Origin: a virus
Reading direction: 5' to 3' (one strand)
IMG/VR virus record: IMGVR_UViG_3300029309_000001
Coordinates: 55,027-119,026 of that record
DNA: 64,000 bases
Shown: piece after piece, positions 5,825 to 53,080 of the stretch
How the letters are laid out: the number at the start of each line of letters is the position of its first letter
How positions within the stretch are numbered: position 1 is the stretch's first letter
Program-made: the position numbers and the translations under genes
The notes under the pieces: generated by a model
Seen by the model: only the letters and a program-made list of their open reading frames with translations
Databases searched by the model: none
Told to the model about the DNA's origin: nothing

Positions 5825-8800
5825 ATCATACCTAAAGACTTTAAATGTTTAGTTCCTGCAGGTGTAAGTTTATCTCCATTTTCATATTTTTTAATAAGTC
5901 TATCTGTTACTTTATCAACTTCACCTCCCATTTGCTTTTTAGTTATTCCTTCATTAAATTTTTCTATATATTCTTGAGGAGTTTTATTAGCTTGTCCTGC
6001 ATTAACTCCATATTTATCTGGAAATACAGATTCTAAACTATTACCATCTCTAAGTACATAACCTAAATATTCACGTGTTCCTTGTCTTCCTAAAAAGTTT
6101 ACTAATGCTGCAACTTCTGTTGTAGTATATGGAAAACTAGGTATTTGTTTGCTATAAATTTTATATAAATCTATACCACTTTCTCTTAGACCTTTTACAC
6201 CTTCTAACTTACCTCTATATCTATTTTCAAAATATTTATTCTGTGCTTCTATATCATTAGCAAAATCTTGTCTACTTCCATCATACATTGTAGAAATTTC
6301 ACTAAACCTTTGTCCATATAAACCTGTAGCAGTTGATTCTGGATTAATCATTAGTTCACCATTAAGACTTTCTGCATAAGCAACTCCTTGTTTTAATTTT
6401 TCAAAATCAACCCAATTTGCATCTAATTCACTTGGTGGTATTAATTCTTTAGTATCTGGATGATAATATATTCTTCCATATATATCAAATGGTTTTCCTA
6501 CAATACTTTCTCCTTCAATATTAAAACCTAAACCTGTTGGTATATCAAAATCATATTCATCATAATAAGCATAATAAGGAAGCTCTCTTTCATCATCCAT
6601 ACCTCTTGATATTTGATAATTACTAAGATTAAAACCTCCTGCTGCAGAATCATTTATTTGCCATTTATCTTTTGATGCATCTTTTGTAATACCCCTTTCT
6701 ATTATGTCATCCATAATATCATCAACATTATTAAAAGAATAATAAACAGACTTATCATCTTCTACTCCTAATGTAGGTTTAAATTTAGATTTAGAAACTG
6801 TATTATGTTTTTGATCAAAACCTAAATACATACCCCATAAATCTTCTGAAGCATTTTTAATATATTCTCCAGCATTAGGATTATCTTTAAATCTAGGATG
6901 ATTTTGAAAATCATCAAATGATGTTTCTACACCATCCCACATAAAAGGTTGTTTTTCTCCATAAAGCATTTCTACCATTGCTTGATCCATATTATAACCT
7001 ATAGGTGTTACAGATTTATATAATCTATTTGCTAACCATCCAGGATTATTTTGACCTTGCATTTGAAACTTAGGTAATCTTTTATTATATTTATCTTTTA
7101 TTGATCCACCTGTCTTTTTTTCTTCTAAATTATTTAACTCTAAACCTTCTAACGTAGCTGCTGTTATAGGTACACCAGTTAACATTTTATTTAAAAGATT
7201 TGCAATAAGTTTATTATTTTGTTTAGTATCTTTTGTTTGATCTAATATTCTCATAACATATCCATCATAATCTGTACCAGGTAGTAATTTAGCATTATCA
7301 GCACGTACCTTAGAAATTAAATCTCCTGTTATATTATCATAAGCATCTGATATATATTTATTATCTAATAGATATTGTTGTAACTCTGCAACATGAGCAG
7401 TAGGCTCTATATACAAAGTTCCTGGTGATTCAAAAGATGGTGAATTAGTTTTTTTTGGAGTAACTGTTTTTATTGGTTCGGTCATATAATCTTGAGTTTC
7501 TTTATTTCTTACTCCAAAACCTTTATCTGCATTACCCCATAGTGAATAACCATCATCAATTAACATTTGATTTTTTAATAATGCAGATGATGTAAGACCA
7601 CCATCATCAACAAATTTTAAATTTGGTGAAAACCAATTAGTATTTGCAGCTCCTAATCTTTGATCAAATATTTTTGTTGCATCATCTGTTATAGGTATAG
7701 TAGTAGATCCAAAACCAAAAACATTTTTTTCAGTATTGCCAGAATTTCTTATTAATTTTCCTACATAGTCCAGTGCATGTTGATCTTCATGTCTAAAAAT
7801 ATTTCTTAACCAATTTTCTGGCAATGCATTTGTATTCATACTTACAAAAGGTAATATACCTTTTTCTAATTGATTATAGTTTTCACCTGAAAAGAAATAC
7901 GGACTATCATCTGGACCATATGAATTAAAATTATTTATAATAGGTATTTGTTTATATGTTGCAATAAATTTATCTACATCTGTATCACTTGCATTTGGAC
8001 CTAAATAATTTTCTTTTATTCTTCTACGTCCTTCTGTAGTATTCATTCTTTCAAGAATATCATTTCTTATATTTAAATAAGATGTATTTCCTGTTAAACT
8101 TTTAGACATATCTTTAACGTCCATTGAATGACTACCTGCACCTAATACTGGTTTACCCATTTGAAGTGTACTTATATATTCAGGATTATATATAAGACTT
8201 TTTAAATCTAATGGTTGAACCATAGAAAAATCTTCAAATAAACTTGTTGTTGGTGTTCCTACCTCTCCTGTTCCATAAAGATCTTCAAATGCATTATAAT
8301 TAACATTTCCCCTAGCTTCTCTACCTATTGCTTCATTATGTATTCTTATTAAATCATCATCTAGATCATCTTTAAAAAATGCTAAATCTTTTTTACTTTG
8401 ATCAACTATATCTGTAAAAGTATTACCTGTTAAACCATGATAATTTTGAAAGTATCCTGGTTGTGCATTATAATAATCTTTTCCAACATTTGATATATTT
8501 TTTGATGTGCCACCTAACCAAGTTGGTAAATAACTACGAAGATAATCTTTTGTATCTTTTACTGTTTGTATTGTTTTTTTTATTTTTGCAGGATTAAACA
8601 AATCTTTATATTGTGCTTTTGGTAATGAACCACCAAGTTTATATAAATCTTTTCCTTTAATAGGTATTATTCCTGGAGATTCTATATCTAAATTATATTT
8701 AGATAAATAACTATCAGGCACTTTAACTCTTATATATTGATTTCCTTTTTGATCAGTAATAATTTCATAAGGATAATCTTTTCCAAAAACTTTATTAATA

Positions 8801-11800
8801 TCTTTTTTAAGTTGTTTTTCAGTATTTTTATTTAATATACTTTGATACCTTTTTGGATAAGCAGATGGATTACTAATAGCAGTTACATCATCAGGATTAT
8901 ATCCTTGATTTGTTAAAAAATTATTTCTAATTTCTTCTATTTTATTTTTTTGTTCTTGAAAACCTCCTGAAATTTCTATTGTGTTACCATCTGGTTGTTT
9001 ATAAGTAACAATCATTTTTTTAGGATTAGTTTTATCAAAAGTAAAAGGTCCTAAAGTTTCTTTACCTACAGCATCTGATTTAATTAAATTACCAAGTGTT
9101 TGATCTACTTCACTAAGAAAATCATTCCAACTATGACCAGTCCAATTATATTCTGTATATAAAGGATTGGGTGCTCCAAATTTATCTGCAGTATATCCTT
9201 GAGTTTTTGCAACTGTTGAAGATAATGGTAAATGTAAATAATCTTTACCACTTTTTGCTGAATAATCTGCAAGTTCAGATAATAATATTTGTTGAGGATT
9301 TTTTCTAAATTCTTTTAAATTTAATTCTACTTCAGATGGATTATTTAATTCATCTAATTCTTTTTTATTTTGTTCCTTTATTTCTTTATTTTGTTTTTTA
9401 CTTTTATTTATTAAATTTTCTTCATATTTTATTTTTGAGTCAACAAATGATTTAAATGCAGGATGTTGTGCTATTTCTAATTGTAATTCTTTTGATATAT
9501 TAGGTGCATTTACATTACTTCTCATAATTGAATTAAACTCTTCATTATTAAAAAAGTTATGATTAGATATATCTACAGATGTTTGATAATCTTTATCTGA
9601 TACATTTGGACCACGGTATTCTGCATTTGCACGTATTGAAGGTGATGATCGTATAAAGTCACGTATTGTTCCTATTAAGTGTTGATTTGTCCAATGCATG
9701 CCATCTTCTGTTTCTAACATAGCATCTATAAAATGATAAGCTTCTTCAGGATTTGTATCTACATCTTTGATATAATTTAAAACATAATTATAATTTTCTA
9801 TTTTTCTTAAATGTCCGTCATAATTTACTGGATTTTCTTTACTTAAATAATCTTTTCGGTTTTGAAGATTTTTATTATATTTTTGAGCATAATCAGATTG
9901 TTTTTCTACTGAAATAGTTGCATCAGGAAACTCATCACTAAAGGCAACTCTATTATGTCCTAATACAAGTTTATCTGTTAAATTTTTTCCAAAATGTGCA
10001 GAACCTGTAGTTTTACTATAATCAGTTACACCTGCATCATCTATAGTTGTTAATAAAAGATTTCCTCTTGCAGAATTGTCACCTTTAAAAATATTAGATT
10101 CATCTCCTTGCCAATAAGTTGTAAAGTTAGAAGTAGGAGATTGTAATGATGTATACATTGTTGGAAATAATAATGTAGGATTTAATGATTGTTGAACTTC
10201 ATCTGCAAATGCATTATAATTAATTGCACCTCTACCTCTATTATTTTGCATCATTGTTTCATAAACTCCTAACATTTTTCCTCTGTCATATCTTTCTTGA
10301 GGAGATAAACCTTTAATTTTTTGAAGATATTGTAAAAATAAATTATTGTTTATATCCCCTTTATTATCTATTATTTTAGTAAGTTCACTATCATTTATAA
10401 TTGTAGGTAATTGAATATTAGAAGATTGAAGTGGAATTTGCTGGCTTGCTATATAATCTTGCCAATTTGCATAAGGCCAATTTTGTCTTAACACTGTATT
10501 AAATTGTCCCATTGATCCTGTTGGTTTATTAGTAAATAATGATGGGTTTCTTGTTGATCTATAATTTAAATTAAGTGTATTTTTAGATGGTGAAAAAAAA
10601 CTTTTAACACCTTGATATAAAGTTTTATACTTTGGATCAAATGGATTATACCATTGAGCTTTTGGTAACTGACCACCGTCTCTAGACATAAAATTAGATT
10701 GTCCAAAATCATCTACTATTTCAAAAGGATTATCAGTCCCTTGAGGAGTTTGTTGTGCAACATTATCCATAAGCCATATAATATCTTCATCTGAAAAGTT
10801 TTTAAATAATCTATTATAACCATGCTTTTCTTTCATCTTTTTTAAATCCTCTTCTGTAAATTTTTTATAATCCCCTGAACTATCATATATACCTGATTTA
10901 TCTGCTTGGTATCTAAATTCTATTAAATCAGATCTAACTTCTGATGGATCTGCATTATGAAATCCTGGTGTTGTACTATAATTTCTATCTAACCACCGTT
11001 TAATTTCATTAGGGTTTTCTGTCATGTATTGTTGTTCATCTTCTGATAATTGATTCCATACATTTTGAAATGCTTTATTTCTTTTATTTATTTTAGCTTG
11101 TAAATTTTGATCTCCTACAAAAAATCCACCTTCAGTATGTCCTAATTCATGAGCCATAATATCTTTCTGTTGTTCCTCAGTAAAAGGACCAATATAATTA
11201 TTTATTGGATCTATAGTAATTGAACTTCTAGTTTTAGTAGAATATCCCTTCTTATGTTTATGTTGTCCAAGTGATCCAGTAAACTTTTCTTCTATAGAAG
11301 GTCCTAGAATAATTGGCTCATCTAATGGTTCAAGCCATATAGAATCTTCATGCTGCATTCTATAAGGATAATCATCTATATATTGTAGACCTTGTTTTGT
11401 TCCTGATTTAAAAAAACGATTAGTCCAGCCTGGTTTATCAGAATTATCAATTATTTTGTTTTTTAAATGATCAAAAGTATTACCTTTTAAATATGACCCA
11501 TACCAATCTACTACAGGTTGATATTTATTTGCTATTGCCATCTCTTCATCAGTAAGTGTATTTGGTAATACTTCTCCAGTAGATTGATAATTAGGTATAT
11601 TAAATTGTTCAGCTATTGAATTTTCAATTGAGTCAGCTTGATTAGCTAAAATTAACGCTTTACTAAATTCATCAAATTCTGGTGAGTTAAGTAACACTCC
11701 TTCTTTAGGAGGTTTTTTACCAAGTAATATTTCATATACTTGTATGTCATCTTTATTCATTTCTAGTATATCTGGTATATTAGAAAAATGTGTGCCACTT

Positions 11801-12501
11801 AAAGTAGAACCTCTACCAGTTTCTAATGGTGTAAACATGTTTACTAAAGGAAGGAATTTTGAAAGAGTTTTTCCTAAAAGTGGTTTTATAGCTTGCAATG
11901 CAGTTCTTATACCTAATTGATCAGTATTATCTTCAGAATCTTCTCCCCCATGTTTTTTCTTTTTTAAATTTGGAGTTTTATAACCTCCTTTAGCAAAAGC
12001 ATCAGCTTCTTCTTCAGAATTAAAATAATAAACCTCTCCTCTTTCTAACGCCATTTTAAAAGCATCTTGTTCTTGACCTTTTTGAAACTCTGTCCATGAT
12101 GTAGGATCTGGAGTTTCTTGTCCTTCTACAGTAGGATATAACATTGGTATAACCATATAAATAGGACTACCATCATCATCTGTCATTTCAATAGTAGTCA
12201 TAAGATGTGTAGATACATTTCCCATTTGTTTATTATAATTAGGAAGTAATTTATTATCTCTTTCTGTTCTTCTTTGTTTTACTTTATTTGTTGGTTTGTC
12301 TTGAACAGGTTGTTCAAATACCATGTTACCTGGAAACTTATAATTAAAACCAGGTTGCATTAATTGTTGATTACCAAAATTATCTGTACCCATAACTGGA
12401 AAGTCTACACCTTTCATAGTTATATCTCCAGATGGTATAATATTATAAGGATTATTTACATCCTTACTATTTCTTTTATATCCGTCTTTACTTAATTTCA
12501 T
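5821..12501 (-). CDS. Giant modular polyprotein: zinc metallopeptidase, second HExxH module and lysozyme-like domain
   Basis: This 2226-aa protein has four apparent modules. Module I (1 to about 605) begins with a segment recalled from phage proteins (STHLMTTIEM, then FNSEEEADAFAKGGYK) and carries HELGH at 451-455, a zinc metallopeptidase signature; SEVRSD further on may supply the third ligand. Module II (609-1288) has EKQSDYAQ, resembling the EIQSD-type motif of large phage proteins. Module III (1290-1797) carries HEDQH at 1571-1575. Module IV (1798-2226) has a candidate catalytic Glu near 2044 followed by TGLYGQ, as in transglycosylase-type lysozymes. Junctions read GGQLPKAQ (609), GGSLPKAQ (1290) and GGSI...RLPKFQ (1798-1813). 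Its ATG overlaps the upstream stop by 1 nt. It could be an ejected cargo protein that opens peptidoglycan and acts on host proteins (inference). Confidence 0.75.
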   Translation of the reverse strand: MKLSKDGYKRNSKDVNNPYNIIPSGDITMKGVDFPVMGTDNFGNQQLMQPGFNYKFPGNMVFEQPVQDKPTNKVKQRRTERDNKLLPNYNKQMGNVSTHLMTTIEMTDDDGSPIYMVIPMLYPTVEGQETPDPTSWTEFQKGQEQDAFKMALERGEVYYFNSEEEADAFAKGGYKTPNLKKKKHGGEDSEDNTDQLGIRTALQAIKPLLGKTLSKFLPLVNMFTPLETGRGSTLSGTHFSNIPDILEMNKDDIQVYEILLGKKPPKEGVLLNSPEFDEFSKALILANQADSIENSIAEQFNIPNYQSTGEVLPNTLTDEEMAIANKYQPVVDWYGSYLKGNTFDHLKNKIIDNSDKPGWTNRFFKSGTKQGLQYIDDYPYRMQHEDSIWLEPLDEPIILGPSIEEKFTGSLGQHKHKKGYSTKTRSSITIDPINNYIGPFTEEQQKDIMAHELGHTEGGFFVGDQNLQAKINKRNKAFQNVWNQLSEDEQQYMTENPNEIKRWLDRNYSTTPGFHNADPSEVRSDLIEFRYQADKSGIYDSSGDYKKFTEEDLKKMKEKHGYNRLFKNFSDEDIIWLMDNVAQQTPQGTDNPFEIVDDFGQSNFMSRDGGQLPKAQWYNPFDPKYKTLYQGVKSFFSPSKNTLNLNYRSTRNPSLFTNKPTGSMGQFNTVLRQNWPYANWQDYIASQQIPLQSSNIQLPTIINDSELTKIIDNKGDINNNLFLQYLQKIKGLSPQERYDRGKMLGVYETMMQNNRGRGAINYNAFADEVQQSLNPTLLFPTMYTSLQSPTSNFTTYWQGDESNIFKGDNSARGNLLLTTIDDAGVTDYSKTTGSAHFGKNLTDKLVLGHNRVAFSDEFPDATISVEKQSDYAQKYNKNLQNRKDYLSKENPVNYDGHLRKIENYNYVLNYIKDVDTNPEEAYHFIDAMLETEDGMHWTNQHLIGTIRDFIRSSPSIRANAEYRGPNVSDKDYQTSVDISNHNFFNNEEFNSIMRSNVNAPNISKELQLEIAQHPAFKSFVDSKIKYEENLINKSKKQNKEIKEQNKKELDELNNPSEVELNLKEFRKNPQQILLSELADYSAKSGKDYLHLPLSSTVAKTQGYTADKFGAPNPLYTEYNWTGHSWNDFLSEVDQTLGNLIKSDAVGKETLGPFTFDKTNPKKMIVTYKQPDGNTIEISGGFQEQKNKIEEIRNNFLTNQGYNPDDVTAISNPSAYPKRYQSILNKNTEKQLKKDINKVFGKDYPYEIITDQKGNQYIRVKVPDSYLSKYNLDIESPGIIPIKGKDLYKLGGSLPKAQYKDLFNPAKIKKTIQTVKDTKDYLRSYLPTWLGGTSKNISNVGKDYYNAQPGYFQNYHGLTGNTFTDIVDQSKKDLAFFKDDLDDDLIRIHNEAIGREARGNVNYNAFEDLYGTGEVGTPTTSLFEDFSMVQPLDLKSLIYNPEYISTLQMGKPVLGAGSHSMDVKDMSKSLTGNTSYLNIRNDILERMNTTEGRRRIKENYLGPNASDTDVDKFIATYKQIPIINNFNSYGPDDSPYFFSGENYNQLEKGILPFVSMNTNALPENWLRNIFRHEDQHALDYVGKLIRNSGNTEKNVFGFGSTTIPITDDATKIFDQRLGAANTNWFSPNLKFVDDGGLTSSALLKNQMLIDDGYSLWGNADKGFGVRNKETQDYMTEPIKTVTPKKTNSPSFESPGTLYIEPTAHVAELQQYLLDNKYISDAYDNITGDLISKVRADNAKLLPGTDYDGYVMRILDQTKDTKQNNKLIANLLNKMLTGVPITAATLEGLELNNLEEKKTGGSIKDKYNKRLPKFQMQGQNNPGWLANRLYKSVTPIGYNMDQAMVEMLYGEKQPFMWDGVETSFDDFQNHPRFKDNPNAGEYIKNASEDLWGMYLGFDQKHNTVSKSKFKPTLGVEDDKSVYYSFNNVDDIMDDIIERGITKDASKDKWQINDSAAGGFNLSNYQISRGMDDERELPYYAYYDEYDFDIPTGLGFNIEGESIVGKPFDIYGRIYYHPDTKELIPPSELDANWVDFEKLKQGVAYAESLNGELMINPESTATGLYGQRFSEISTMYDGSRQDFANDIEAQNKYFENRYRGKLEGVKGLRESGIDLYKIYSKQIPSFPYTTTEVAALVNFLGRQGTREYLGYVLRDGNSLESVFPDKYGVNAGQANKTPQEYIEKFNEGITKKQMGGEVDKVTDRLIKKYENGDKLTPAGTKHLKSLGMI

Positions 12502-15500
12502 TATCTAAAAGATATATTCATTTTACTGTTATTTAACTTAAGTAACATTTTTCTATCACCTGAAACATTCTTTCTTAGAACTAACATGTTATAGTAATGT
12601 CTAAACTTCTTTCTTTGTAACTCTGCTTTGTTATAATTAAGATTTGCTTGATTTAAATCTTTTATATAACCATTTAATCTTGTAATCCAAATAGATCTTT
12701 CTATACCACTAAACTCACCTCTATCATCTGTAATATCCCAGAATTGATTAAATCTATATTTTTGCTCTTCCTTAGAATATAAAATTTGTATATCAGTAGG
12801 AGGATTAATTATAGGATATTGATTTAACAAAGGTACATTATTTTTAGGAGATAGATCTAAAGTAAGTAGACCAGATACTTGTTCTGAATTAAATATAACT
12901 GCTTCATCAAAATTCCAATCTAAATCATGCCATTTATCTGTACCTATTAATTGTTGAGGTCTTGGTAAATTAAAGTTTTTATAAACATAAGATTCCATTT
13001 GATATTCAACACTTCTTAATGTATTTACTACTTGACCTGAGTTTTCAATTAATGTAATTTCCCATGGATAATCTTGACCATAGAAGTTTGCATATAAATC
13101 ATTTCTTGCATTATGTTTCCATATACCACCTACTTCATAATTTGCAGGTACACATTGTTGATATTCATAATTACATATTAAAGGATTTGGATTTATATAA
13201 CCTGGTGTTCCTGCTAAAAATAAATCATCACATTGAGTACCAGGCTCAAACCAAGTTGTTGCTTGAGATGGATCAGGCACAGGTATAGGAGGACACTCAC
13301 ATAAAACTCTTTTACATATTGGTGGATTAAATGAACTACAAACTTGACCTGCAGGTACTTCTGTATAACCAGGTGGACATTCACAAGATACACACTGTGG
13401 TAAAGGTGCACTTGGATCTGGATCACATGGTATAGTAGCAGGCGTATCAGGAACAGTATTAGGTGGACAATTACAACTTACTAATGAATCAACTATAAGC
13501 TGTGCTACATCACCATAATTACTTGCATCAACTGCAAAATGATTAACATTACAAACAGAAGGACCTTGATTACCATTAAATCCTCTTGGCGGCATACAAT
13601 TAATAGTATTTTCCCATGCATTACCACAAGCAGGAGCATTACCTGATGCAAATACAGCATATACTTCTACATTAGGAGGAAAATTAGCTGTATTTTGACA
13701 TGCAACATCAGCATCTGTAATAAAAATAGCAACTTGTCTAGTTGCAGTAGATGCACCTAACATACTAGCATCATTAAGTCTATTTAAAGCTGCTTGATAA
13801 GTTGTAGCTGCTCCATTTGCATTATTAGGAATAGCAGTAACATCAGCAGTTACAGTTGCTGCATTTCCGTTAAGAGGTGAAACAATATAATCTGAAGGAT
13901 TTCCACCTGCTGTATTATTATTAGACCAATTTGCTACACCAACTTGTACATTATTTGTACCTGCAGAACCACCATCCATTCCACCAGATAATAAAGTAAT
14001 GCAAGTATTTATAAATTGTTTTTGAAATACTTGTGTATTATTAGCTGCAGGTCTAGTTGATCCAGAATAATCATTTAAAAAGAATACATCTAAATCTTCA
14101 CTAAATGCAGATCTTTCTGTATCTACTGAAGTTACTATACTTTCTGTAAAATCTATTTCAACAAATGCTGGATCTGAGTCAGTAACAGTAATACAACATT
14201 CACCAACGCTAGGATCAAATGAATATCCTGGAGGACATTGTGGTATTTCAGTAGTTACAGTTTTAGATGTCATGAAATGATTAATACTATTGAATGTTAA
14301 TTCAGGGTGCCAATCATGGAATGAGATCCAAGCTTTTGCTTTTGGATCATAACTAACTGTCCAAGAAACATCTTGGAAATATGTTGGGTTATCTAATTGA
14401 AAAGGTATGTAAGTCAATACATCTTCATATATAGGATCTACTTGTTCAAAGCAATCACATTCTTCTGTTACAAAGTTATATGAACAATTAGGTCCACACT
14501 CAGGTGTTACACCTGGGCATATTGCTTCTGCTAGATCAGCAACAATACCTGGTATATTATCAAATTGAAAATTTCCAGCCATAAATGGATTTGGATCTCC
14601 TGTCATAAAATCATTACCTGCCATTGCTTGTGCATAATCTAATTGATCTTGTGTAGGTACATTATTATTTCTTAACCATCCTGGAATTATTTCTAATTGT
14701 CCAATAAAATTAGGATTTGCTGAATCTTGATATTGAGGATTTACATGAACATTAGCTTGTAACCATTGTATAATATCATCATCAAATCCTTGTGATGCAA
14801 ATGAAGCATGAGAGTTACCACCTAAATTTACCATAGGTGGAGTTACAGGCACAGCTACATGTGGAGCATTAATAGCTGATTGTGCGCCTGCTCCTGGTGG
14901 ACAAGTAGGACAACACATAGGAGGGCTTGTTAATTGGTTTGGTCTATTTACAAACCAAAATGGATTAGGTGCTGGAAAAGGATAACAAGTATTATTAACA
15001 TTTGCAACACTAGAAAAACCATCATATAAGAAAACAAGTTTTTTAGGAATACCAACTCTTGCATTTGCAGGATTAAATAATTCATTTATACCAGACCATA
15101 ATCCATCAGCTACATTTGTACCTTGTCGTATAGTTTGACCTGTTCCAACATTATAACTATTTATCCAACCTCCCATAATACCAGAAGGATTTGTTGGAGT
15201 AACAGCAGAAGGATCTGTTTGAGAAATTAAATTATCATTAAATGTTAATCCTTGCGGAGTAGCTAATGCATCATTTATATTACCTGGTTGTACATCTATT
15301 GGTAATTGACTATATACACCATCCCAAGCACGTGTACCAAAAGCCATAATCCCCATTTTTGTGAAACCTAGATCCATGCTATTTCTAAATGCATTAGTTA
15401 AACCTGTAACTAAATTTCTCATTGATGCTACATTATTTTGAGTATTTACAGAAGCAGAAGCATCTGTTACAATCATAATATCAAATTCACATGGTGGAGC

Positions 15501-18500
15501 AGGTGGACCAAATGGAACATCTGTATAAGATTTTTCACACATTTGTGTTGCTGGATTATATGTAAATCCATCAGGGCATGTTATGTTTTGTGCAACACCA
15601 CTACATGCTGTTTCATTATAATAGAATCCATCACATGGTACATACTCAATACATGGAGAGTTTGTATATTGTTCTGATACATTCCAATCTCTTTTAGAAA
15701 AATAAACTATGTCATTATTAGTATCATATACAGTTTGACAACCAGCTGCTGTTACAGGGTTATCAATTATTTGAGGGCAATCTTCTATCTCAGGAAATGC
15801 AGCTAATAATTGAGATGGTAAATATTTATTAAACCACCACTTCATTCCTGTATTAGTTATATTAATTAAACCTTGACCTGATGTTTGAAATATTTTTCCT
15901 TGTTCTTGAGATATATAAAATAATCCCATTGGTGTATTTAAAACTCCTCTTGAACTTTCAGATGAACCATATTCATGAGATACATCAGAGTTTACTACTT
16001 CTCTAAAGTTTCTATCTACAAATAAACCTCCGTCACCAACAGTTATTTTTGTTCCTGCATCTGTAGTTAATTGATCATTACCTGTAAATATTTTTGGTGA
16101 CATTCTAGGAAATAATACCATAGCACCATAACCACTTATAGGTTTAATAGTATTAATTGTATCTTTAAATTCTTTATAGTTTAATGGAAGGAACACTCTC
16201 CAAAAATCTTTCTTTGCTTCTTTTTTTGCTTGTAAAGAATATATTAAACGTTTTTCATATGTAGTATAACAAGTTTCTGCTACTAATGGATCATAATATC
16301 TAGGTTGTATATTACCAAAAGATGTTGTTCTAGTAATAAATTGATCTATACTTAATGCTTTGTCATACTTATAGAAGTTACCTTTTTTAATATGATCAAC
16401 GTGGAATAGACTTGTAAGATCAGAATACTCTAATCTATCATAATGTCTTTTTTCCATATCTTCACCCCAATCTCTAAAGGCTAAGTTTATTTCTGATTCT
16501 ACAAAAAAGTCATTTACACCATTACAATGTAAATACATAAAACCTTCAGTTATATGAAATAAATTACCTCTTCCTCCAGTAGCACCAAAAAATCCAAGAG
16601 TACCTAAAGCATTAAGATCTCTATCTAAATAATAATAATCATTAGGCATTGCATTTTGAAAAGTATTTGCACCACCAAATAACCAACCCATACCTCCAAT
16701 AGCTTTTGTTAATTCATCTAATCTATATTGTTCTGTATTCATCCAATACGTAGGAAATGGTACATTAGGATATTTTCTATAATCAAATACAAAACCATCT
16801 CTTTCATTATCATCTAAATAATCCCAGAAAAAAGGCATAATAGCTTTTTCTGTATATCTATTTATATATACATCACCTCCAAATAATGGTTGTTGTGTAT
16901 TAAATCTTGTTAATGTAGAAATAATAGGATTACCACTTGCATCAGTTGGTAGTTGATCAGCAAAAAATTCTACACATCCACGCATTGGTATTTGTCTTAT
17001 ACTATCTAATTGACCATATTGATTATCAATGTTAAATTTCATAGCACAATAATGTGCTGCAATATTTGTTGTACTAGGACTTCCAGGATTAGTATGATCT
17101 GCTATACCTGCTCCAGCTGGTACAGTTCCAATTGTAAACTTTGAATTATCATTAAAACCTAATTGTGCTGGATTTTGTAATCCTGCACCATCAAGATTTA
17201 CAGCTACAGTTGTAGGTCTATTTAAATTATTAATTCTAATATTAGCATTAAGTTGAGATATACTACCTTTTAAATATCTTGCAGTATCTATAGAATGTCT
17301 AAATACAGTACCTCCTGGTAATTGATTCATATTTCTATACCAACCATGACTGTTATATTTCATGGCAAAATCTTGAAAACTACAAAGATTATAAATTAAA
17401 TCTATAATTTCCTGACCACCAGTAGCAACATAATTTAAAAAAGTTTGAGCTCCTCCTAATAGACCAATAATTCCAGGTGTTTGAGTAAATCTACTTCCTT
17501 TATAAATTCTTTCTGCTTTTGGTCCTATTGTACCTGCTGTATTCCAACGTGTATTTTGTGCTAAATTTATTGCTCCTTGATCTGCTGCTTGAGCAGCACT
17601 ACCAAAAGCTCCTCCTCCTACTATTAAAGCTGCATCACCTAAAGTTCTACCAGTTCCCATACCAGGTGTTCCTCCTGTTGCATTAGTTCTATCAGTAATA
17701 GCACCACTTGTTAACCAATTACCATTACCCCCAGCCCAACCTGAAGCATGAGGAGCAGCTCCAGTTTGACCTCCACTTCTTGCAGTAGTAGTTTCATTAA
17801 AACTAGGACTTGTTGCATTAGCAGTAGCTGACCATCCATTAGCAAATGCATTACCTGGTGTCATAACTATATTAGTACTATTTCCAGTTTGTGCTTGCCC
17901 TCTTTCTTGACCCATATTATAAGACTGACCAGTTGTTATTTTTCTATCAATTGGTCCTCTCATTTCATACATTGCATATCCTATACCTATAAAAGCTGCT
18001 AAGATAGCTGTTGAATTACGTAATAATTTTTCACCTGGATGCTTTTCAGATTTTTGAAATCTTCCTTTAGCATTACCTGTTAATACACCATATGATTTTA
18101 ATTCATATGCATTTAAAAATGGTCTATTAAACATTAATTCAGGTGAATGAAATGTATGTACATTATTTGAAAATGTATTAATTTGACCACCAAAATTACC
18201 TGTATGAGGACCAAGATCTGTTCCTTGTAACCAGTTTTGCATACCAGTACCCCAGCTTTGAATTGAAACAGTTCCTGTTGGATCTGTAGGTGTTCCAAGA
18301 TTTCCAGGTGATCTTAAATATGGATCTGCTCCTAGATCATTAAATGGATAGTTAGGTATAAAGAATTGTGTTGTACCATCTCCTGATGCTGTTTCTGTAG
18401 GAGCATAAGCTTCCATATTTTTTAATATACCTTTTCCTAATATAGATTTATTACCTTCCCGTGTTCCTACTAAAAATTCATATCCAACTATATTAGTTAT

Positions 18501-20087
18501 AAGATTTCCATCATTATCTCTTGGCCATGGTATATTTGTAAATTCTACTGCAAGATTAAATATAGAAGCTCCTCCTGGTGAAGATGTAGCTGTTGTTCCA
18601 TCTGGTACACTATTATCATCTGGCATTTTATGATGTCTAATAGGTTGACCACATAAACCGCCATATCTTATTTGATCTTGAGGATATAATTCTGTTGACT
18701 CCCAATAAGCCATTGCACCTCTAGTTCTAATAATACCACCATCTGGTTGTGTTTGATTTATATTAACTGAAGTAGGAAATGCTGTATTATATACTTTAAA
18801 TACTGGATCTGTTGGATCTAATGCATTTGGATCACCACCTATAACTGTACGTTCATCTACAGCTATACCACCTGCATTAAAAGGTACAGATGCTCTACCT
18901 GGTATATGATATGAAGAAGAACGTTCACCTGTATTATATATAAATCTTATAAAGAATGTATATACTTCATCTCTTAAAAATGAAGGTTTATTACCGCCAT
19001 TATAATAATAATCTACAGGATATTCAACAGATACCCAATTAGTTTGTATTTGATTTGCTAATGGTTGATAGTTAAAATCAAATTGTTCTGTAGGTTGTGT
19101 TCTTACTAAATAATCATTTACAACAAACATTCCTTTTGACTTTTCATATGCTGGTCTTCTTAAAGGAAGAAAATCAAGAGGAAGTGATTTTAATGCTTGA
19201 TTTAAATAATCTAATTTAATAGTAGTTTGTTCTGTACTATAATTTCCAACAACATATGCTTTTACTTCTGATACAACATCTGTTAATAATACTAATTGAT
19301 ATTGATCAAATTCTGTATCTAAATTAGATAAAGTTAATATTAATGACCCTGAAGTATCATCATGATCAAACAATGGTTGTACATTAGATATACCTATATA
19401 ATCTCCATATACTTGATCATTAATTGTATATGCTATAAATGCTTGATATGATCCATTTCTTAATTGTCCTCCTTCAGGAGCCTTTTGTAAATCAAGACAT
19501 GGTGTATCAATTAATGGAGCTAATCTAATTCTTTCACAATCTAATGTTAATGGTTGTATGTTTTCTCTTACTACACAAGCAGCACCAGGAGCTGATGTTA
19601 TTATTTGTACATAAGGAGGTTCATCTAATATTATTGTTCTAGAAGGATTTAAACCGTCATCCCAATATAGTTGCCATTTACATTCAAAATTTTCTTTAGC
19701 AGCACCTATAATTAAATTATCAGTACTAAAATTTAAACAAGGATCATTTATTAATCTTGTATATTCACATTTACTATCATCAAACACCCCTATTTCTGAA
19801 GATATATTATCTGTTGAATAAACAGCCCACTGATCACCATAAATATGTATTGAACCAATTATTGTATATGGTATTTCTGCACATTCAAAATTTGCTGGCT
19901 CATTACCTATTACACCTGTATCTCCATCTATAGAATTATTTATAGCATTAACTGCATGCTCCCATACTTCTTTACTTGCTATAGATGCAAAGGTATCTTT
20001 TACCATACCTTTCATAAATAGATTAGATTCTACAGATGAGGTCTTTTGTGGTAACTGTGGATTTTGATTCTTTTTCTTTTTAGCCAT
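12501..20087 (-). CDS. crAss-like tail stabilisation/muzzle-type protein with two vWFA-like domains, 2528 aa
   Basis: The N-terminal third matches my memory of the conserved crAss-like tail stabilisation or muzzle protein: a region with SIDGDTGVIGNEPAN, then YSTDN and YWDDGLNPSR. It would sit at the distal tail end. The protein looks longer than usual because of an insert between about 1535 and 2300. The insert holds a von Willebrand A-like domain with a DASAS metal site near 1542, a second one with DYSGS near 1998 and FITDAD later, and cysteine-rich CPPGYTEV-type stretches around 2203-2300. The C-terminus (about 2380-2528) returns to structural-type sequence. A Gly/Ala/Thr-rich segment with hydrophobic runs lies near 700-870. 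The downstream gene overlaps by 1 nt (TAATG). The vWFA modules suggest metal-dependent surface adhesion (inference). Confidence 0.8.
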   Translation of the reverse strand: MAKKKKNQNPQLPQKTSSVESNLFMKGMVKDTFASIASKEVWEHAVNAINNSIDGDTGVIGNEPANFECAEIPYTIIGSIHIYGDQWAVYSTDNISSEIGVFDDSKCEYTRLINDPCLNFSTDNLIIGAAKENFECKWQLYWDDGLNPSRTIILDEPPYVQIITSAPGAACVVRENIQPLTLDCERIRLAPLIDTPCLDLQKAPEGGQLRNGSYQAFIAYTINDQVYGDYIGISNVQPLFDHDDTSGSLILTLSNLDTEFDQYQLVLLTDVVSEVKAYVVGNYSTEQTTIKLDYLNQALKSLPLDFLPLRRPAYEKSKGMFVVNDYLVRTQPTEQFDFNYQPLANQIQTNWVSVEYPVDYYYNGGNKPSFLRDEVYTFFIRFIYNTGERSSSYHIPGRASVPFNAGGIAVDERTVIGGDPNALDPTDPVFKVYNTAFPTSVNINQTQPDGGIIRTRGAMAYWESTELYPQDQIRYGGLCGQPIRHHKMPDDNSVPDGTTATSSPGGASIFNLAVEFTNIPWPRDNDGNLITNIVGYEFLVGTREGNKSILGKGILKNMEAYAPTETASGDGTTQFFIPNYPFNDLGADPYLRSPGNLGTPTDPTGTVSIQSWGTGMQNWLQGTDLGPHTGNFGGQINTFSNNVHTFHSPELMFNRPFLNAYELKSYGVLTGNAKGRFQKSEKHPGEKLLRNSTAILAAFIGIGYAMYEMRGPIDRKITTGQSYNMGQERGQAQTGNSTNIVMTPGNAFANGWSATANATSPSFNETTTARSGGQTGAAPHASGWAGGNGNWLTSGAITDRTNATGGTPGMGTGRTLGDAALIVGGGAFGSAAQAADQGAINLAQNTRWNTAGTIGPKAERIYKGSRFTQTPGIIGLLGGAQTFLNYVATGGQEIIDLIYNLCSFQDFAMKYNSHGWYRNMNQLPGGTVFRHSIDTARYLKGSISQLNANIRINNLNRPTTVAVNLDGAGLQNPAQLGFNDNSKFTIGTVPAGAGIADHTNPGSPSTTNIAAHYCAMKFNIDNQYGQLDSIRQIPMRGCVEFFADQLPTDASGNPIISTLTRFNTQQPLFGGDVYINRYTEKAIMPFFWDYLDDNERDGFVFDYRKYPNVPFPTYWMNTEQYRLDELTKAIGGMGWLFGGANTFQNAMPNDYYYLDRDLNALGTLGFFGATGGRGNLFHITEGFMYLHCNGVNDFFVESEINLAFRDWGEDMEKRHYDRLEYSDLTSLFHVDHIKKGNFYKYDKALSIDQFITRTTSFGNIQPRYYDPLVAETCYTTYEKRLIYSLQAKKEAKKDFWRVFLPLNYKEFKDTINTIKPISGYGAMVLFPRMSPKIFTGNDQLTTDAGTKITVGDGGLFVDRNFREVVNSDVSHEYGSSESSRGVLNTPMGLFYISQEQGKIFQTSGQGLINITNTGMKWWFNKYLPSQLLAAFPEIEDCPQIIDNPVTAAGCQTVYDTNNDIVYFSKRDWNVSEQYTNSPCIEYVPCDGFYYNETACSGVAQNITCPDGFTYNPATQMCEKSYTDVPFGPPAPPCEFDIMIVTDASASVNTQNNVASMRNLVTGLTNAFRNSMDLGFTKMGIMAFGTRAWDGVYSQLPIDVQPGNINDALATPQGLTFNDNLISQTDPSAVTPTNPSGIMGGWINSYNVGTGQTIRQGTNVADGLWSGINELFNPANARVGIPKKLVFLYDGFSSVANVNNTCYPFPAPNPFWFVNRPNQLTSPPMCCPTCPPGAGAQSAINAPHVAVPVTPPMVNLGGNSHASFASQGFDDDIIQWLQANVHVNPQYQDSANPNFIGQLEIIPGWLRNNNVPTQDQLDYAQAMAGNDFMTGDPNPFMAGNFQFDNIPGIVADLAEAICPGVTPECGPNCSYNFVTEECDCFEQVDPIYEDVLTYIPFQLDNPTYFQDVSWTVSYDPKAKAWISFHDWHPELTFNSINHFMTSKTVTTEIPQCPPGYSFDPSVGECCITVTDSDPAFVEIDFTESIVTSVDTERSAFSEDLDVFFLNDYSGSTRPAANNTQVFQKQFINTCITLLSGGMDGGSAGTNNVQVGVANWSNNNTAGGNPSDYIVSPLNGNAATVTADVTAIPNNANGAATTYQAALNRLNDASMLGASTATRQVAIFITDADVACQNTANFPPNVEVYAVFASGNAPACGNAWENTINCMPPRGFNGNQGPSVCNVNHFAVDASNYGDVAQLIVDSLVSCNCPPNTVPDTPATIPCDPDPSAPLPQCVSCECPPGYTEVPAGQVCSSFNPPICKRVLCECPPIPVPDPSQATTWFEPGTQCDDLFLAGTPGYINPNPLICNYEYQQCVPANYEVGGIWKHNARNDLYANFYGQDYPWEITLIENSGQVVNTLRSVEYQMESYVYKNFNLPRPQQLIGTDKWHDLDWNFDEAVIFNSEQVSGLLTLDLSPKNNVPLLNQYPIINPPTDIQILYSKEEQKYRFNQFWDITDDRGEFSGIERSIWITRLNGYIKDLNQANLNYNKAELQRKKFRHYYNMLVLRKNVSGDRKMLLKLNNSKMNISFR

Positions 20088-50942: not shown

Positions 50943-50987
50943 ACAATCTTTCTTTTAAAAAAGAGGGCTTGTTTAGGGTATCCCCCC

Positions 50988-51008
50988 TATATACTTAATA
51001 TACAAAAA
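50988..51008 (-). promoter_or_regulatory. Late promoter-like motif at the strand switch
   Basis: The minus strand reads TTTTTGTATATTAAGTATAT, ending 45 nt before ATG 50942. C-runs flank it on the plus strand (TATCCCCCC before, AATCCCCCC after), giving a short direct repeat. It would drive the leftward unit up to the phoH terminator. Confidence 0.5.
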
Positions 51009-51143
51009 TCCCCCCACATATGAAAGTCCGTGAATTGAAAAGTTGTATATATGGCATGTGCGTTACCTCCTACTGTACTGCTCCCCAGCTTACAAAAGAC
51101 GGAAGTGTACCCCCATTGGGTCCACAGTCTAAAAAATTATATT

Positions 51144-51452
51144 ATGTCAGTATTTTTTCACAAAATCCCAGAGGGATCTAACACTATCGTGTGTAAATCA
51201 TCAGTTGAAAACATCCAAGAGGTAACCATCCAAACACCAGACGGTCCTAAAGTGGTTCAATCCAGAACACAACAAAACATCCAATTTGGATTGTTGTGTC
51301 TTGTGGATATTAACCCAAGGTCTTTAAAACTTAAACCTAATCAAGAACTAAAAGGTTTTAAAATGTCTGGTATCTTTGTAAAAGACCGTAATGAAAAGAA
51401 TGAAGACGGTTCTTTCAAAGACACAACCTTACAATGGGTAACACCTAAGTAA
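51144..51452 (+). CDS. First rightward gene, unknown early protein
   Basis: The start was set at ATG 51144 (MSVFFHKIPEGSN). A longer frame from 51051 runs through what looks like promoter and leader sequence. The 102-aa product has VTIQTPDGPKVVQSRTQQN and LKLKPNQELKGFKMSG, a small beta-rich domain with no recognised family. It is followed by a good hairpin terminator, so it forms a one-gene unit next to the strand switch and is probably an immediate-early protein. Its base composition is slightly richer in G and C than neighbouring DNA. Confidence 0.6.
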   Translation: MSVFFHKIPEGSNTIVCKSSVENIQEVTIQTPDGPKVVQSRTQQNIQFGLLCLVDINPRSLKLKPNQELKGFKMSGIFVKDRNEKNEDGSFKDTTLQWVTPK

Positions 51453-52062
51453 TAGTGTTTAAGGGTACTAGTGTATCCTTAACCTTTCTTAAGGCATTAC
51501 GCAATTTAACTCACTCAAATGTAGTCACTCAGTTTTACCTTGACTGGTTTACAAACTCAAACTATTCTCAATGTGAGTAAACATAAGACAATGTAACGCA
51601 ATCTAACAAGATTGTAGTTACTTGTCCTATATGTTACCAAGTTCTTGTCCTTAACAAAAAGAATTGACATAAAAACAATTTATTTGTTACAAAAAAAATT
51701 AATTGTGTGTATTAAGTTGTGTGTGATAGTCTTATTTCCCACATATAACCACCTTTTACCACATCATAACAACTGATTGGTACATAATAAATAATATAGC
51801 TATCATAACTTGTTTGTTGATGATTGTATCTTACAAGGGTACATAATGACTCTGGTTATGATGGCTATTACTATATGTCTCTTCTCTCTCTATAGAATGA
51901 GCATATTAGTATCCGCAATATTAAAAAATCACAAAGAGAGTTAGCTAGTGCACATAGCTACCATCCTGATACTACTATAGGCAGTGAAATACAGAAATAA
52001 GACTAGGATCTGTACTCTCTTTTATATTCAACTCAAATCATTAATCACTTAAAATAATAATT
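51453..52062 (+). other. Roughly 600-bp non-coding, structured region
   Basis: No convincing gene is present in this stretch. It holds the terminator at 51459-51482 and a long inverted repeat: ATAGCTATCATAAC at 51796-51809 against its complement at 51855-51868, 13 of 14 matching, with a 45-nt loop that itself contains TTGTA-TCT-TACAA. GTGTGT runs and CTCTCTT runs follow. A 28-aa hydrophobic frame (ATG 51858 to 51944) overlaps the right arm and is not called as a gene. The region could be a structured RNA, a regulatory leader or an origin; I see no tRNA. Confidence 0.5.
51459..51482 (+). terminator. Terminator after the first rightward gene
   Basis: TTAAGGGTAC at 51459-51468 pairs with GTATCCTTAA at 51473-51482 (one G-U pair) around a TAGT loop, 6 nt after the stop codon. 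It is followed by CCTTTCTTAAGG. Confidence 0.65.
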
Positions 52063-52386
52063 ATGAAAGTTACTATTAAAAAACTATTATCAGGCATTAT
52101 AGTGCCATTATCAATCTTATACCTTAACTACTTACATGTAGATGTATTCTTTACTACTGTGTTAGGATCTATAGCAACCGTTATAGTAAATTTAGCAGCA
52201 TTATCTTGTTGCTTTATATTATTTCATCATCACCCAGCATATAAGTTTAGAATACGGGGTGAGTATGTACCAATGTGCACAATAGGAATTGGAGCACAAG
52301 CTGGTATGATAGGAATTGTATTACCATTCTATGTTATAGCATTTGGATGGGAAGATGTATCACCAACTAAAGATCCATGGATATGA
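52063..52386 (+). CDS. Predicted inner-membrane protein with three hydrophobic segments
   Basis: A 107-aa protein: LLSGIIVPLSILYLNYL, VLGSIATVIVNLAALSCCFILF and IGAQAGMIGIVLPFYVIAFGW are strongly hydrophobic, with HHHPAYKFRIR between the second and third. No family recognised. It overlaps the next gene by the classical ATGA. Early membrane proteins of phages often act on host physiology or superinfection, but nothing here shows that. Confidence 0.6.
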   Translation: MKVTIKKLLSGIIVPLSILYLNYLHVDVFFTTVLGSIATVIVNLAALSCCFILFHHHPAYKFRIRGEYVPMCTIGIGAQAGMIGIVLPFYVIAFGWEDVSPTKDPWI

Positions 52387-52931: not shown

Positions 52932-52987
52932 ACTAACAGTACCATTATTGTAATACTATATTATTACATACAGTTTAAGTGAGAGTA

Positions 52988-53009
52988 GTTAGGTGGGAAA
53001 CCACGTAAC
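52988..53009 (+). other. RNA hairpin with GNRA tetraloop
   Basis: GTTA-G-GTGG-GAAA-CCAC-G-TAAC forms two stacked 4-bp helices around a single G-G mismatch, capped by a GAAA tetraloop. This is a well-formed RNA structure between the 181-aa gene and its terminator. It may stabilise the 3' end of the mRNA or be part of a small RNA. Confidence 0.45.
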
Positions 53010-53024
53010 TGCATTTGAGTGGGA

Positions 53025-53054
53025 AAAAGAGGGGATGTAAAAGTCTCCTCTTTT
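53025..53054 (+). terminator. Strong rightward terminator
   Basis: AAAAGAGGGGA at 53025-53035 pairs with TCTCCTCTTTT at 53044-53054 (one G-U pair) around an 8-nt loop; the U-rich arm continues as CTT. It ends the 52063-52928 unit. Confidence 0.75.
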
Positions 53055-53080
53055 CTTAAAACCAAAACAAGTATTACGGC

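Follow-up and report, generated by a model that had tools for sequence, protein, structure and literature searches.

The window, our name for the whole 64-kb stretch of DNA analysed, is the right-hand part of a 119,026-base phage contig, and its gap at positions 51453-52062 looks like a composite control element that is conserved among relatives. Its most surprising feature is a single site resembling the operator of the bacterial regulator MraZ, through which, judging from sequence, the element may act. From left to right the gap holds a terminator (51459-51482), a GT-rich box, three CCAC repeats, an AT-rich TATAAT-like stretch with ATAGCTA, a hairpin (P1) and a CTCTCTATAGRATRAG block, beyond which a new rightward unit begins. 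Our best reading, to which we give about an even chance, is an early rightward promoter under host MraZ with a swappable hairpin leader. We propose that the gap controls a second early operon running rightward: the terminator would end the transcript of the first gene and a new transcript would start near ATAGCTA, at the AT-rich, TATAAT-like promoter. The host cell-division regulator MraZ would bind the phased CCAC/GTGG repeats ~35-60 bp upstream of this start and set promoter activity. The transcript would carry at its 5′ end the stem-loop P1, closed by the conserved ATAGCTAT, with a body that would be swapped between phages through recombination in the conserved flanks, and it would cross the CTCTCTATAG block before reaching accessory early genes. 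An earlier sequence-only reading of the gap had offered a replication origin, a structured early RNA or a long leader with regulatory function. This reading is supported in part. The long leader fits best, since the terminator is followed by a single-copy block that resembles an operator and promoter, and then by the conserved hairpin and the start of another operon.

The gap, its neighbours and its relatives

Genes run leftward to the left of ~50.9 kb and rightward to the right of 51.1 kb. The first rightward gene (51144..51452, + strand) is the conserved upstream neighbour of the element and encodes a 102-aa protein with an all-beta prediction; a start at 51051 was rejected, the start at 51144 (MSVFFHK...) being the one conserved in relatives. 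A profile built from this gene matches 42 of 59 upstream ORFs, that of the window included. AlphaFold2 models the protein with a mean pLDDT of 92.5, and a fold search with it returned SSB/OB-like rows that were frequent but weak, none reaching an E value of 0.001 and with Z values of at most 5.2. The gap opens directly 3′ of this gene with a feature that the sequence-only reading had not mentioned, a terminator-like hairpin (TTAAGGGTAC/GTATCCTTAA; 51459..51492, + strand) whose G-C stem and T-rich tail are those of an intrinsic terminator and which would close the first gene's transcript. In most relatives a stem likewise lies directly 3′ of the homologous upstream gene, several with canonical T-runs. 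Given this hairpin, the genes that follow would need a new start. The gap had been described as lacking a convincing gene, and this is borne out, its longest ORFs being 37-44 aa. The first gene of the next rightward unit (52063..52386, + strand) encodes a hydrophobic protein of 107 aa; the gene at this position varies among relatives. Leftward genes on the left and rightward genes on the right were seen at 25 of the 37 loci with enough flank, some of which are stretches of one record; of the 12 that deviate, eight lack any ORF of at least 90 aa on the left side and the remaining four (L083, L087, L124 and L127) have rightward ORFs on that side.

Close relatives were recruited with the upstream protein, with a 23-mer that is conserved, and with the block 3′ of the hairpin in two forms. 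Nine distinct contigs, window included, have the same parts in one order, namely a GT-rich stretch, the phased CCAC repeats, the AT-rich part containing ATAGCTA, a stretch that varies, and CTCTCTATAGRATRAG, in some with one letter changed. No second close copy of the repeats or of the 3′ block was found in the stretches examined. The GT-rich box (AATTGTGTGTATTAAGTTGTGTGTG; 51701..51725, + strand) is conserved in the close relatives and shows moderate G/T information across 49 distinct blocks. Widening the pattern to three CCAC spaced by 10 bp and followed by ATAGCTA retrieved 61 stretches from IMG/VR, which together with L013, L021 and the window make 64 elements. Being part of the search pattern, ATAGCTA is invariant in the 61 by selection; recruitment through the 3′ block alone did not select for it, and the contigs so obtained have it too. 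The 3′ block lies 32-176 nt past ATAGCTA in 56 of the 64 elements. As for the other eight, L049, L076, L078 and L085 end at most 82 nt from ATAGCTA, L046, L080 and L082 are without the block, and L086 is unrelated; having neither portal nor 3′ block, it was removed from the block-information, gene-layout and promoter counts. Two loci found with a looser 3′-block pattern (L031 and L032) were without the repeats and were dropped as chance, and blastn against INPHARED gave chance-level short matches only.

The portal protein of the window is 21-33% identical to portals in the best 20 of 127 records; the matches listed include crAss-like phages and Cellulophaga phage phi17:2, and the best is Leptolyngbya phage Lbo-JY46. 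Named portal relatives among the matches listed have mainly Bacteroidota as hosts, and the bacterial genomes that bear the box carry mraZ. The large virion protein family phrog_37948 is common to the window, phi17:2 and Lbo-JY46 and was not found in phi14:2 or crAss001; on this distribution we regard this lineage of large, uncultured phages as a relative of both phi17:2 and the crAss-like phages but do not count it among the Crassvirales. The product of 12501-20087 in the window, 2528 aa long, contains a von Willebrand A domain (Pfam, E 3.9e-08) and is a distant relative of a large phi17:2 virion protein. The window portal, searched in 37 records, matched 31, of which 30 are at 66-89% identity and one (G016) at 29%; five of the six without a match are fragments or partial contigs and the sixth is the contig of L086. 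Judged by portal sequence, the elements with a shared portal are one lineage.

Phased CCAC repeats and the mraZ operator

MraZ heads the division gene cluster in most bacteria, and its operator is strongly conserved. In the window, the triple repeat CCAC-N6-CCAC-N6-CCAC (51739..51762) reads GTGG on the minus strand with a 10-bp period. Exactly one copy is present in each of 15 phage records, own contig included (reversed control, 0/15); the repeat was found in none of six named outgroup phages and in none of 200 shuffles of the window. When genomes of bacteria and archaea were scanned with the same pattern, 14 stretches were found, all of them bacterial contigs. In each, Pfam identifies the gene that faces away from the box as MraZ, with the box directly upstream of mraZ. 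The next frame in most of these contigs reads like RsmH/MraW. Furthermore, the bare triple repeat occurs exactly once in each of nine whole bacterial genomes, and its reversed control never. The literature describes MraZ sites as series of 7-nt GTG-cored repeats separated by 3-nt spacers (PMC7761207), and E. coli MraZ as a repressor of its own cluster (PMC8475190). The stretch at 51739-51762 thus has the GTG-cored direct repeats, at least three at a 10-bp period, that define such an operator, and the pattern is specific to mraZ in bacteria (14/14 contigs; once in 9/9 genomes). The position directly upstream of mraZ is not shared, because none of 14 phage records has a MraZ by Pfam, the control genome being positive; we therefore call the box operator-like and do not assign it to the mraZ promoter family. 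The orientation also differs, bacterial mraZ lying on the GTGG-reading side and the rightward unit of the phages on the opposite side of the repeats. A strict triple-ACCAC version of the pattern, run over all of IMG/VR, gave 14 stretches, six already in the set and eight others (L110-L117) in which neither a portal match nor any visible element next to the box was seen; L115 and L117 are alike around the strict box.

We consider it unlikely that the repeats merely resemble an MraZ operator and are bound by a regulator that the phages encode. These phages do have many uncharacterised genes, and the 102-aa neighbour is conserved beside the element; such a regulator would nevertheless have to bind a site that agrees with mraZ operators in its core, its 10-bp period and its flanking A/T letters and whose pattern is found nowhere else in the nine whole bacterial genomes. 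The phage records being without a match to MraZ also weighed, in our assessment, against this alternative.

Past the repeats lies a TATAAT-like stretch ending in ATAGCTA (AATAATATAGCTA; 51790..51802, + strand), the proposed promoter and RNA start. At least five of the six TATAAT letters are present in 55 of 63 elements, whereas mononucleotide shuffles reach this in a fraction of 0.45, and the distance from the repeats to ATAGCTA is ~30-33 nt in nearly all elements. An ORF begins directly behind ATAGCTA in L030, L046 and L082, which points to rightward transcription. In L030 a small ORF (8671-8832; MKTMFEAFKLNGIEYYYHKGKCFVDNG...) replaces the hairpin, and its ATG overlaps ATAGCTATG. The Bacteroidota-type promoter element is TAnnTTTG. 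It occurs 11-12 nt past the last GTGG repeat in seven of the 14 bacterial mraZ regions (L089, L090, L091, L092, L094, L095 and L096), a spacing at which the box would cover the -33 region in those seven. Beside the phage box it was seen in 0/50 cases on the right and in 1/50 on the left. We counted against an MraZ-controlled promoter that TAnnTTTG is missing, that no phage RNA polymerase was found and that the rightward unit is across the repeats from where mraZ sits in bacteria.

The polymerase searches covered two types. On the minus strand of the 3′ block, close relatives have a T7 promoter look-alike (TAATAY...CTATAGAGAGA), which was rejected as a T7-type promoter when its -17 part was lost in the wider set; a family search for T7-type polymerases gave no match in the own contig, but none in the controls either, which makes that search uninformative. 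The motif of the crAss-like virion RNA polymerase is D[FYLIVM][DN]GD. It is absent from the own contig's open frames of at least 250 codons, and the largest proteins of the contig match neither solved polymerase structures nor Pfam polymerases; this enzyme was set aside, though the contig may still encode one.

An operator without an MraZ gene in the phage records, and with no host-type promoter element beside it, is also what would be seen if the box drove no phage promoter and instead served as a decoy, the multiplying phage DNA titrating host MraZ and deregulating the division gene cluster. We hold this to be very unlikely, because the near-constant repeats-to-ATAGCTA distance and the fixed place before a new operon suggest a promoter, and because a pure decoy would benefit from several copies, yet there is one.

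The replication origin offered by the sequence-only reading, in which the repeats would be iterons for a phage initiator, the AT-rich stretch would melt and the hairpin would serve priming or strand choice, seems to us quite unlikely. Direct repeats, AT-rich DNA and a hairpin do adjoin one another, the repeats are single-copy in each record, helicase- and primase-like genes lie rightward of the element, and cumulative GC skew is lowest at 51-52 kb. However, the skew changes sign exactly where the genes change strand and so says little about an origin, the repeats equal the mraZ operator that is unique in bacterial genomes, and the hairpin is hypervariable in sequence and absent in three members.

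Hairpin P1 and the exchange of its sequence

Hairpin P1 (51796..51868, + strand) is an exchangeable cassette whose arms, at 51796-51809 and 51855-51868, form the 14-bp inverted repeat that had been pointed out before; it is present with 13 of 14 matches, the odd position being a G.U wobble on the + strand. By itself such a repeat (arms of 14, at most one mismatch, gap 3-60) is at chance, with 2 in 64 kb against 3, 2, 7, 3, 2 and 0 in six dinucleotide shuffles. As + strand RNA, the 130 nt at 51796-51925 fold better than 200 of 200 shuffles (z -4.69); as - strand RNA they give z -2.55. It is the comparison with relatives, not the repeat itself, that settles the structure, because the place of the stem is kept while its sequence changes: the stem is closed at the same ATAGCTAT, and a variable stretch, mostly a hairpin, lies at the same place in 56 elements. 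Compensatory changes in the arms had been named as a check; across unrelated inserts the pairing is conserved. Own arms gave -15.9 kcal/mol and swapped arms -10.1, a difference matched by 0 of 20000 permutations (32 of 34 clusters of unrelated inserts; the two shortest were left out). The sequence-only reading had staked its hairpin on conservation of the arms; the right arm is not conserved in sequence, but its pairing is. The smaller hairpin that it saw between the arms is variable. In about a third of the clusters, mostly with short inserts, the own arm fell outside the best five, and several members with short inserts, such as L034, L035 and L065, have no good closing stem; L046, L080 and L082 have neither P1 nor the 3′ block.

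The pairing of P1 is real, with near-equal fold scores on the two strands (mean z -2.1 on the + strand and -1.9 on the - strand, against -0.55 in random windows). Wobbles in P1 stand at 42 G.T to 18 A.C; this polarity was set aside as proof of RNA, since it differs from 1:1 (p 0.003) but is not clearly above the 1479:882 of the swapped-arm control. A structured early RNA, the second of the earlier proposals, is thus possible, with pairing conserved across unrelated sequences but with an excess of G.T over A.C near background. Rfam 15 at gathering score gave no hit in the window and three tRNAs only in 20 relatives' loci. Neither an antisense target of the window's hairpin in its own contig nor a shared motif inside the cassettes rose above shuffles.

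The 3′ block (51869..51921, + strand) can be folded as a second hairpin, P2. Its core, CTCTCTATAGAATGAG (51886-51901), is found within 5 errors in 56 elements. The P2 pairing is weakly supported, 211 of 20000 permutations reaching the observed value, and P2 was rejected as a covarying hairpin. A small protein in the 3′ block was likewise rejected as a general explanation, the frame shifting among relatives through 2-nt insertions (alignment A1). We counted against a leader RNA the weak strand evidence, the stemless short inserts, the weak P2 covariation and the three members without P1.

Among 45 pairs with 5′ flanks at least 85% alike, which are not independent, inserts are less than 55% alike in 20 and at least 70% alike in 18. 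Conversely, L054 and L079 have an identical insert with 68% flanks, and L059 and L062 a 97% insert with 65% flanks. By these sequence comparisons, the hairpin sequences are exchanged between backbones like a cassette. Such exchange might mean that P1 acts as DNA, as a cruciform or recombination site, and marks a hotspot of cargo exchange rather than an RNA leader. The structure does score alike on both strands among the relatives, and the flanks are conserved while the inserts swap, once for an ORF (L030). We nevertheless doubt it: the window folds more strongly as the + strand, and most clusters pair onward from the conserved ATAGCTAT, after the TATAAT-like stretch. A more speculative extension of the leader, which we think improbable as a whole, is that a virulent phage lineage senses the division state of its host via MraZ at one early promoter, and that this promoter is coupled to a set of 5′ hairpin RNA cassettes that can be exchanged; these would serve as modules that set specificity, in superinfection exclusion or in countering RNA-sensing defences, and recombination at the conserved boxes would shuffle them among phages that circulate together.

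Relation to known systems

Phages of Alphaproteobacteria carry CtrA-binding sites, for which binding and regulation have been demonstrated and which are associated with 'lytic deferment' (PMC9437464). As described there, a large intergenic region of these phages, too, holds an operator for a regulator of the host cell cycle, once between divergent gene blocks; our element differs in that, by sequence, it concerns MraZ and the division cluster in other hosts, with a single triple site per genome rather than dense clusters and with a swappable hairpin behind the site. The same text names Spo0A, in Bacillus phage phi29, and LexA, in temperate phages, as further host master regulators co-opted via operators in phage promoters (PMC9437464), whereas here the regulator and the architecture are different and no dormancy or lysogeny signal is known. 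Like the CtrA, Spo0A and LexA sites, the phage box is a host operator-like site in an intergenic, promoter-like region of phages without the regulator gene. With the bacterial mraZ (dcw) operator the box shares GTG-cored direct repeats, a 10-bp period and one site per genome in the nine tested (PMC7761207, PMC8475190), but there the operator precedes mraZ, and the phage box has no mraZ nearby and the rightward unit on its other side. Among the literature matches listed, most subscription journals lying outside the search, we found no report of MraZ operators in phages; nor, among these matches and with the same scope, was there a report of a hypervariable phage hairpin or promoter of this kind.

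If the element works as it looks, these phages would read or tap the cell-division regulator of the host, which would add MraZ to CtrA, Spo0A and LexA among the host factors read by phages, and a phage lineage that keeps a single mraZ-type operator where its early genes are controlled would offer a natural means to probe MraZ. A different puzzle is posed by the swappable hairpin, in that relatives exchange it and keep its pairing but not its sequence. P4 CI RNA and similar phage leader RNAs are structured RNAs in an early leader that differ among relatives. As a putative RNA, P1 would be alike in this respect, and unlike that type it yielded no antisense target in its own contig.

Two further non-coding stretches lie near the element. 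One, at 50979-51130 between the divergent genes, is also strongly conserved, contains ATACAAAAATCCCCCCACATA and GTTASSTCCTACTGTTCTGCTCCCCAGCTTAAAAA and is common to the close relatives. The other, at 52987-53060 between small genes, consists of AGTTAGGTGGGAAACCACGTAACT and then a hairpin-like, GC-rich stretch with a T-rich tail; its first part, on the AGTTAGGTGGGAAACCACGTAACT side, is also present in L013.
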